In this document: one piece after another, positions 33,392 through 35,172 of the stretch
How positions within the stretch are numbered: the first letter of the stretch is position 1
Layout of the letters: every line of letters begins with the position of its first letter
Assembly: GCF_003148885.1 (NCBI RefSeq)
Contig: NZ_QGHD01000028.1
Coordinates: 1 to 35,172 of the forward strand
Source: Hallerella porci
GTDB lineage: Bacteria > Fibrobacterota > Fibrobacteria > Fibrobacterales > Fibrobacteraceae
Reading direction: 5' to 3'
Length of the DNA stretch: 35,172 nt
Made by a program: the position numbers and the translations under genes
Notes under the pieces: generated by a model
The model's database searches: none
Seen by the model: only the letters and a program-made list of their open reading frames with translations
Told to the model about the DNA's origin: nothing

Positions 33392-33457
33392 GAAAATTAG
33401 GAGTTAGAAATGAGGAATGAGGAGGGAAGAGAATGGCGCCTGCGGGGCAGCTACAGT

Positions 33458-33486
33458 AAAAGCCTTTAGATTTCCTAAAGGCTTTT
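33458..33486 (-). terminator. Intrinsic terminator of the two-peptide operon
   Basis: The 12-bp perfect arms AAAAGCCTTTAG and CTAAAGGCTTTT enclose the loop ATTTC. It lies 7 bp past the stop of the 32-aa ORF on the minus strand. Confidence 0.9.
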
Positions 33487-33493
33487 ATTGATT

Positions 33494-33592
33494 TTACTTA
33501 GACGGAGGATTGTTTCCGCGACCGCCACCAGATGGGTTTCCTGTTCTAGATGGCCAATTTGGGTTTGGATTACCGGTGTGATTTGTTGCCAT
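33494..33592 (-). CDS. Small 32-aa Asn/Pro/Gly-rich peptide
   Basis: The peptide reads MATNHTGNPNPNWPS, then RTGNPSGGGRGNNPPSK: two TGNP motifs, a single Trp, no Cys, no hydrophobic segment, mildly basic. It should be disordered. A good Shine-Dalgarno (AAGGAGA) lies 7-8 nt before the ATG and overlaps the stop of the 43-aa ORF upstream, so the two are translationally linked. A strong terminator follows directly. Those signals make it a real gene despite its size. No leader-peptide cleavage site or modification enzyme is seen nearby, so calling it a bacteriocin or RiPP precursor would be guesswork. Function unknown. Confidence 0.7.
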   Translation of the reverse strand: MATNHTGNPNPNWPSRTGNPSGGGRGNNPPSK

Positions 33593-33603
33593 AACGAATC
33601 TCC

Positions 33604-33735
33604 TTATTTTGAGTTGTGTTGATTAGGGTTTAATTGTTTTCCGCGGTTTCCTTGGTTTTGATCGTATTGACGATTGGTACCAAAGGTGCCTTTATTTGGA
33701 TTTTGCATGTTTGATGCATTATCTTTTGGTTCCAT
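33604..33735 (-). CDS. Small 43-aa Asn/Gln/Gly-rich peptide
   Basis: The peptide reads MEPKDNASNMQNPNKGTFG, then TNRQYDQNQGNRGKQLNPNQ, then HNSK. It is hydrophilic, basic and without Cys, Trp or a hydrophobic stretch, and is probably disordered. NPN occurs twice and also occurs in the 32-aa peptide next to it. AGAAGGA lies about 6 nt before the ATG. The stop TAA is inside the ribosome-binding site of the next ORF, 11 bp before its ATG. It is the first gene of a two-gene minus-strand operon that diverges from two membrane coiled-coil genes across a nested palindrome. Function unknown. Confidence 0.7.
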   Translation of the reverse strand: MEPKDNASNMQNPNKGTFGTNRQYDQNQGNRGKQLNPNQHNSK

Positions 33736-33763
33736 GATGATTCCTTCTATAGAAAGTTATTTA

Positions 33764-33821: not shown

Positions 33822-33909
33822 CGCCAACGGTTATTTTGGGTTATTCTTTTTAAGGAATTTTTTTATAAGTGACAAAGACAAACCTCCGACAAATAAGTCC
33901 TTTTATGGA

Positions 33910-34596
33910 GTGGTCTTTTTGTTGGGCATTTTAGGGGGAAATATTTACTCCGATTTTATGGAAACCGATAAATTTGAAGATGTTGCAAAACGTTCCGAAG
34001 AAAATTTGAAATTAGCGAACCAACGTCATGGTGCTTATTGGGATTCTTTATATCAAGAAAACGCAACTCTCAGTCGAAAAATTTCAGAGGAATATGCAAA
34101 ATATGGGCAATTGAAACGATCTAACGATGAATTAGAAGAAGCGAATAAGGAGTATGCTTCTGCTTATAATGTTTTGCAAAGTCAAAACGAGGAATGCAGA
34201 AATCAGCAGGAAGAATGTATTTCTAATTTAAATTCGACAAATCAAGAATTAGCTGAATCTAAAATTTCAATAGATTCTTTAAAAAGCAAATACGGATATT
34301 TAAATCAAAATTGCAATCAAATGCTTGAATCTTATCAAGACTCCGTAGCTACGCTTCTAGACGATTTGAAAAAATGTGAAGAATCTTCGCAGAATCGTTT
34401 TTCGATGGAAACGGAATTTGCGTTAGTTTATGAATGCATTTTTGGGCAAAGTCGTAGCTATTATTATTCAAAACAAGAAATAAGTCAACTTTCAGACTGC
34501 TGTGTTCAAGCGGTCAAAGCGTTTCAAAAGCATAATCCACATGAAAGTGACTTGAAAGATTTTCAAGAATCCATTTCATTTAAATGCAAAGGATAA
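33910..34596 (+). CDS. Membrane-anchored coiled-coil protein (paralogue A)
   Basis: The GTG 33910 form has 228 aa. An N-terminal hydrophobic stretch (VVFLLGILGGNIYSDFM) is followed by about 120 residues of coiled coil (residues about 20-160, for example KRSNDELEEANKEYASAYNV, SQNEECRNQQEECISNLN), and then a C-terminal domain (about 168-228: ETEFALVYECIFGQSRSYYY). That domain also occurs in the next gene. The frame stays open upstream: an ATA codon at 33865, 8 nt after AAGGA, would add 15 residues beginning (M)SDKDKPPTNKSFYG, giving the basic N-terminus a membrane anchor normally has. AT-rich composition suggests recent acquisition. The next gene starts 3 bp after the stop. Function unknown. 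Confidence 0.6.
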   Translation: MVFLLGILGGNIYSDFMETDKFEDVAKRSEENLKLANQRHGAYWDSLYQENATLSRKISEEYAKYGQLKRSNDELEEANKEYASAYNVLQSQNEECRNQQEECISNLNSTNQELAESKISIDSLKSKYGYLNQNCNQMLESYQDSVATLLDDLKKCEESSQNRFSMETEFALVYECIFGQSRSYYYSKQEISQLSDCCVQAVKAFQKHNPHESDLKDFQESISFKCKG

Positions 34597-34599
34597 AAA

Positions 34600-35058
34600 A
34601 TGACTGAAGAAGAAATCAACAAAAAAATCCAAGATATAAAAAATCAACTTGCTAAATTAGAACCTTCCATAAAAACTTTTAGTGAGTTCGCAAAGAAGCA
34701 ATTTGAAAATATGAAAGGCAAATTTCATCATGCCAAAACGAAGTTTGAAGAAAGCAAAAATACGACGAAAAGAAACGCTTTGATGACGGTGTCTGCACTT
34801 ATTGTTGCCGCTCTTGGCGGAGGTTTCATCGCTTCGGATAAGAGATTGCCTGTTAAAGATGAGTTTATGCTGATGTATGATTGCGTTTTTAATTCACATA
34901 ATCGATATGATAATTATTCTTTGAATGATTTGAAAAGAGTTGCGCAAAAATGTGCAGATATAATCTATGAATACGAAAAGGCCGATTCAATACGAATGAT
35001 AATTTTTTTAAACGAGTGGCTCTGTTCCCTCAAATGGTTGTTGACAAGTTTAAAATGA
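34600..35058 (+). CDS. Membrane coiled-coil protein (paralogue B), probably truncated at the C-terminus
   Basis: The protein has 152 aa. Residues 1-58 are a charged coiled coil (EEEINKKIQDIKNQLAKLE; KKQFENMKGKF), 60-78 a transmembrane segment (ALMTVSALIVAALGGGFIA), and 84-130 the domain shared with the preceding gene (VKDEFMLMYDCVFNSHNRY against METEFALVYECIFGQSRSY, with the later Cys also aligned). Coiled coil and membrane segment are in the opposite order to paralogue A. The last 13 residues (from Trp140) are encoded by sequence starting GGCTCTGTTCCCTC that looks like the end of an insertion sequence, so the native C-terminus is probably lost. Partner of paralogue A; function unknown. Confidence 0.6.
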   Translation: MTEEEINKKIQDIKNQLAKLEPSIKTFSEFAKKQFENMKGKFHHAKTKFEESKNTTKRNALMTVSALIVAALGGGFIASDKRLPVKDEFMLMYDCVFNSHNRYDNYSLNDLKRVAQKCADIIYEYEKADSIRMIIFLNEWLCSLKWLLTSLK

Positions 35059-35081
35059 CATAATTTGTCATCGCTAGAATG

Positions 35082-35087
35082 TATATT
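35082..35087 (+). promoter_or_regulatory. -10-like hexamer of the window-edge ORF
   Basis: TATATT is followed by TGTGGCG (7 nt) and ATG 35095. The spacing matches the leaderless-type starts of chromosomal genes in the window. Confidence 0.5.
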
Positions 35088-35094
35088 TGTGGCG

Positions 35095-35172
35095 ATGGAC
35101 GAGATTGCGCCACAGATAGCCCTGCTCAGGCAGATGTACATGGGACTGGACAAGAAGTCCCGCAAGGCGTTC
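35095..35172 (+). CDS. 5' end of a CDS cut by the window edge, possibly a transposase
   Basis: Only the first 26 codons are visible: MDEIAPQIALLRQMYMGLDK then KSRKAF. The frame is open to the edge and its GC content is higher than in the two genes before it. The segment is helical and basic and is not diagnostic. Because it directly follows a possible insertion-sequence end, a transposase is the first guess. Confidence 0.4.
   Translation, partial: MDEIAPQIALLRQMYMGLDKKSRKAF

Follow-up and report, generated by a model that had tools for sequence, protein, structure and literature searches.

HicA and RelE have been described beside prokaryotic viperins (Gerdes 2024, PMC10865869, classes 9 and 10). 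In section 10 of that article, and in the places reached by a term search of it, no tiny basic peptides are mentioned beside viperin-HicA, and a term search of the DefensePredictor paper likewise gave no mention of peptides of the kind described here. Two such peptides are encoded side by side in a stretch of 35,172 nucleotides from Hallerella porci (contig NZ_QGHD01000028.1), hereafter the window, where no known defense gene adjoins them. They are members of two unnamed families, which we designate F1 and F2. These families are new in that they are unnamed in Pfam, NCBIfam, PHROGs and PADLOC, none of which gave a match, as the preliminary description of the window had supposed, and in that the literature found holds no account of them or their motifs (they may well stand, without a name, in small-protein catalogues such as GMSC, PMC11364881).

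Two tiny genes of Hallerella porci and their surroundings

The preliminary description had proposed two tiny ORFs of 43 and 32 codons, each with a Shine-Dalgarno (SD) sequence, lying 11 bp apart with the first stop codon inside the second ribosome-binding site. Both are present on the minus strand (Table 1) and encode MEPKDNASNMQNPNKGTFGTNRQYDQNQGNRGKQLNPNQHNSK (ORF1) and MATNHTGNPNPNWPSRTGNPSGGGRGNNPPSK (ORF2). The coordinates agree with the proposed layout, as the TAA stop of ORF1 (33604-33606) overlaps the SD of ORF2 and the gap between the two genes (33593-33603) measures 11 bp. A six-frame search of relatives gave homologues of both ORFs; in-frame, stand-alone copies exist in relatives and in distant phyla, and the closest ones keep the reading frame, the ATG and usually an AGGAG-type SD. 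Pooled pairwise dN/dS values for the homologues were 0.17 (F1) and 0.23 (F2), figures that are indicative given non-independent pairs and high dS, and both families are under purifying selection. The two ORFs are thereby genuine tiny genes, more than chance would provide, and are predicted to be co-expressed.

The strong intrinsic terminator that had been placed after the pair was only partly right, since the hairpin is real, with 16 pairs, while the U-tract on the peptide strand is weak. Being short and inside the stem on the minus strand, this U-tract leads a pattern scan to call the structure terminator-like on the plus strand only. The gene beyond the hairpin, on the downstream side of the peptide operon, is an ABC-F gene, and the hairpin is probably a bidirectional terminator between the two.

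Table 1 Features of the peptide locus in the Hallerella porci window
Feature	Position	Strand	Evidence
Hairpin, 16-pair stem (strong)	33454..33490	.	-16.8 kcal/mol, z -5.4
ORF2, F2-family peptide, 32 aa	33494..33592	-	Sequence, homologues, pooled dN/dS 0.23
Shine-Dalgarno AAGGAG, ORF2	33600..33605	-	Sequence; overlaps ORF1 stop
ORF1, F1-family peptide, 43 aa	33604..33735	-	Sequence, homologues, pooled dN/dS 0.17
Shine-Dalgarno AAGGAA, ORF1	33741..33746	-	Sequence
Divergent coiled-coil protein, hydrophobic N-terminus, 228 aa as listed	33910..34596	+	Sequence
Second divergent gene, 152 aa, one hydrophobic segment	34600..35058	+	Sequence

The two genes said to diverge from the pair also exist, and family searches with them returned only coiled-coil noise. 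No good start codon was seen for the first (33860-33915). In its relatives the N-terminus extends further and includes a membrane segment, which may point to an unusual start or to a damaged gene. A role in conflict is plausible for this 228-aa protein, since relatives of it lie beside a HicA-like gene (L183, L185 and L187), at the same locus as a viperin (L234) or in an operon that also carries F1 (L126). Co-occurrence of the peptides with these coiled-coil neighbors, which the preliminary description had raised, is weakly supported, L126 being the one relative found in an operon with F1. Part of the 152-aa protein resembles a 104-aa ORF of locus L129. Its C-terminus is unlike that of its relatives (35000-35172) and is possibly altered close to the contig end, which falls at 35172, shortly past the gene, in a possible mobile element.

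Sequence, spread and tandem arrangements of the peptide families

Peptides of both families have 25-50 residues and are hydrophilic and positively charged (median net charge +7 in F1 and +5 in F2), with 10% and 25% glycine, respectively, and very few hydrophobic residues. The F1 core is N-x-N-K-G-T-x-G-x-N, followed by GNRGKQLNPN, and that of F2 is WPSTTGNPSGGGRxNNPPK. An AlphaFold model of ORF1 built with 30 sequences gave no confident fold (pLDDT 62, pTM 0.25), and this together with the composition suggests that F1 and F2 peptides are probably disordered.

Among GTDB species genomes, 138 relatives of F1 were found, and 80 of them were examined. By record title, which in the case of metagenome-assembled genomes (MAGs) may mask contamination, they span at least ten phyla and include Pseudomonadota, Bacteroidota, Campylobacterota, Cyanobacteria, Spirochaetes, Bdellovibrio, Desulfovibrio, Mucispirillum, an Acholeplasmataceae MAG, Sumerlaeota and one archaeal MAG. 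Nearly all copies stand alone as genes with about 47 codons (about 80 loci in many phyla); on Vibrio plasmids the motif is embedded in a protein of 238-246 aa. F2 was found in Fibrobacterota, Acinetobacter and Psychromonas (Pseudomonadota), Bacteroidota, Enterobacteriaceae plasmids and 24 IMG/VR contigs, and on small plasmids of Salmonella and E. coli a 94-aa protein has it as its tail. Phage records held no convincing F1 or F2, in searches where short, low-complexity queries limit sensitivity.

Some individual copies deserve mention. The H. porci genome has a second F2 copy (contig C47, 8016-8108; L002/L134) located after an operon of radical SAM, kinase and 185-aa genes. It has no start codon in frame where its relatives have ATG and is probably a relic. 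In Klebsiella LC621169.1 (4923-5204; L037), the F1 motif occurs in a hypothetical gene, perhaps an integron cassette, between beta-lactamase genes of a resistance region with qacEdelta1-sul1 at its end. A further tiny basic peptide, RIQSAAAKAGDGTVAKGSFAARSQSAAARN, is encoded directly upstream of a viperin operon (L235, 2648-2842) and possibly represents an additional family of the same style.

The F1-F2 couplet, including its stop-in-SD junction, recurs on Acinetobacter plasmids. It was read completely on NZ_CP014479, more than 20 others have F1 and F2 matches at matching spacing, and the junction on plasmid L176 is that of the window. The two genes overlap on a viral contig (L043), and the reverse order, F2-F1, was found in one Bacteroidetes MAG and two Kaistella species. 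A third tiny family related to these two, F3 (motif NQLNPNNxxYW), is paired with F2 in Lacinutrix and with F1 on a Treponema plasmid. Tandems of the types F1-F2, F2-F1, F1-F3 and F3-F2 are recurrent across separate lineages; the couplet is thus not unique to the window. The small accessory system suggested earlier therefore survives as an accessory module and not as a private two-peptide system, both families being widespread and usually single. Convergent with F1-F2 on Acinetobacter plasmids is a gene of 357-371 aa (L176, 5080-6153), and the same gene family is convergent with F2 on viral contig L153.

Gene neighborhoods and exchange in a common operon slot

Anti-phage genes are abundant around F1. 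In 34 genomes, the genes lying up to 2.5 kb from F1 matched 275 PADLOC families, compared to 39 in equal random stretches of the same genomes, although overlapping models inflate these counts and the control cannot tell defense islands from variable islands in general. Five viperins were found near F1 (PADLOC, E values down to 8e-295) and none among the matches listed for the random stretches, which were mainly to generic kinase-type models plus one restriction locus; Pfam adds 2 ThsB_TIR, 3 ResIII and 2 Fic matches near F1. The recurrent neighbors comprise viperin, type I restriction, HicA-like, MoxR-ATPase/VWA, TIR, AAA ATPase, Fic, cytosine methyltransferase and CRISPR type III-like genes and a helix-turn-helix (HTH) protein of 220-269 aa. 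Several of these names come from reading the sequences, and those of viperin, restriction-modification, Fic, TIR and MoxR also from profiles. Several F1 loci have ordinary neighbors and no defense gene.

In Acinetobacter, Psychrobacter and Methylophaga (L065, L109, L113 and L123), the gene right after F1 encodes a protein of 517-556 aa from a family without a Pfam match. In two unrelated marine gammaproteobacteria (L082, 5953-6123 region; L110, 5968-6108), F1 is found in antisense orientation, flanked by a ThsB-like TIR gene and a gene of about 197 aa. In L144 (7251-12062), genes for an IetA-like AAA ATPase and a second MkoA-like helicase come after F1, in what looks like a mixed IetA/Mokosh operon. 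Plasmid pTS2 of Treponema saccharophilum (L179, 4986-10132) has a long operon that runs from F1, F3, a 122-aa gene, a HicA-like gene and an adenylyltransferase onward to a PEP-utilizing enzyme, a cysteine desulfurase and viperin.

In Fibrobacteraceae, an 860-aa helicase (PADLOC MkoA, E value of 2.8e-72; SF1 helicase domains) shares an operon with a 229-aa partner. We searched 111 Fibrobacteraceae genomes with this partner and read the gene that comes next. It was F1 in eight of 11 operons and F2 in the other three, starting 17-40 nt past the partner stop with a strong AGGAG-type SD. All 11 operons share descent and belong to one bacterial family; the helicases of F1 and F2 carriers are 51-67% identical. 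The tree of the partner, which has no PADLOC match (L140 homologue) and no Pfam match (L129), needs two F1/F2 label changes, while its supported branches also permit one. Similar substitutions are seen elsewhere, as the viperin-HicA-like-peptide arrangement has F1 in Shewanella (L059 and L117) and F2 in Fibrobacteraceae (L128), and near MoxR-ATPase genes we found F1 in L047, L056, L096 and L112 and F2, there divergent, in L136. Due to the full occupancy of the helicase operons by F1 or F2 and the defense-rich neighborhoods of F1, the two families look like interchangeable accessory peptides of defense-type operons. In many bacterial phyla, F1 or F2 often seems to be the last gene of anti-phage operons.

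Viperin can be ruled out as an obligatory partner. Only one of 13 Fibrobacterota viperins had F1 or F2 at a distance of up to 1.5 kb, which makes the peptides facultative for viperin and, by the same count, at most loci. At least three of the 13 had a HicA-like gene, and none of 17 other radical SAM loci had F1 or F2.

Possible roles and comparison with known systems

With moderate confidence, we propose that ORF1 and ORF2 are translated and that their two families provide phage-defense-type operons with accessory peptides that can stand in for one another. A short basic, probably disordered peptide would be made from one transcript with an effector (a helicase, viperin, HicA-like RNase, restriction enzyme or others) and probably in excess over it, because its gene is often the last and has a strong ribosome-binding site. 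Since F1 may be replaced by F2 beside one effector and each occurs beside unrelated effectors, probably no single effector fold is recognized. The peptide would more likely act on a shared target, through putative binding to RNA or a ribonucleoprotein (ribosome) or through protein shielding, and a costly or toxic effector would be supported or restrained as the outcome. Our best guess is that the peptides are made alongside toxic effectors as helpers that bind RNA without specificity or provide shielding, or else as a restraint. More tentatively, F1, F2 and F3 could together be a general class of immune accessory peptides, independent of the effector, that serves many unrelated systems through one shared host component over most of the bacterial tree.

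The main rival is an antitoxin-like safety catch, in which the peptide would inhibit the toxic effector next to it, or expression of that effector, until infection takes the peptide away. It would explain the lone HicA-like genes that directly adjoin F1 in L050, L053 and L090 (PADLOC HicA-like, E value of 9.8e-15 for one member) and the terminal position and strong SD of many peptide genes, and it would suit the HTH protein, which follows F1 in nine loci and two of three further homologues of which also have F1. Antitoxins, however, usually match one toxin, whereas here one peptide accompanies enzymes that share no fold and a single operon is served by two unrelated peptides; moreover, two of the families are basic and no fold is predicted. 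We consider this reading unlikely.

Also unlikely, in our opinion, is that the peptides are hydrophilin-like stress protectants of variable islands, found near defense genes only through shared mobility. Their composition is alike (rich in Gly, Asn, Ser and Pro with almost no hydrophobic residues), copies occur on plasmids, in the Klebsiella integron region and in viral contigs, and the loci without a defense gene fit as well. Shared mobility alone would hardly account for one operon slot that is occupied in 11 of 11 cases with swapping, for the repeated linkage to viperin and HicA-like genes at conserved peptide positions, or for the enrichment of defense genes above random loci.

Precursors of a modified bacteriocin or signal, which would also be short, rich in small residues and sometimes adjoin radical SAM genes, are very improbable, as the radical SAM neighbors match viperin models, most of the neighbors have nothing to do with modification or export, and we saw no leader, Cys core or protease site, in line with the early remark that the peptides are unlike toxins or bacteriocins. 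That the ORFs arose by chance over conserved DNA or RNA elements can hardly be credited, short as they are and unannotated as many copies remain (F2 most of all), given their dN/dS values and a layout of start, SD and stop that is kept across phyla.

If the accessory-peptide reading is right, bacterial immune systems may share a general, overlooked small helper. Very small genes are left out of catalogues of defense systems, and if a swappable peptide belongs to many anti-phage operons, cloning the annotated genes alone may miss a needed component, while the F1 and F2 motifs would be a new bait for unknown defense operons. Because F1 and F2 replace each other in one operon, the function of the peptide can be tested directly.

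Compared with type II antitoxins, F1 and F2 are alike in being small genes in an operon with a possible toxin but differ in being basic, without a recognizable fold and not effector specific, as their neighbors come from many unrelated families instead of constant pairing with one toxin family. Hydrophilins and KGG-repeat proteins such as YciG are likewise short, hydrophilic, Gly rich and presumably disordered, and the Gly content of both families lies above the 6% that marks hydrophilins; they differ from these proteins in having no KGG motif or Pfam match and in their operon linkage to defense-type genes. The helicases encoded before F1 or F2 match the MkoA models of Mokosh in PADLOC, although the partner matches nothing there or in Pfam and the peptide gene is absent from the PADLOC models. 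As for viperin-HicA, the operons seen here are the same as those in the sections of PMC10865869 on these systems, here with the addition of F1 or F2.
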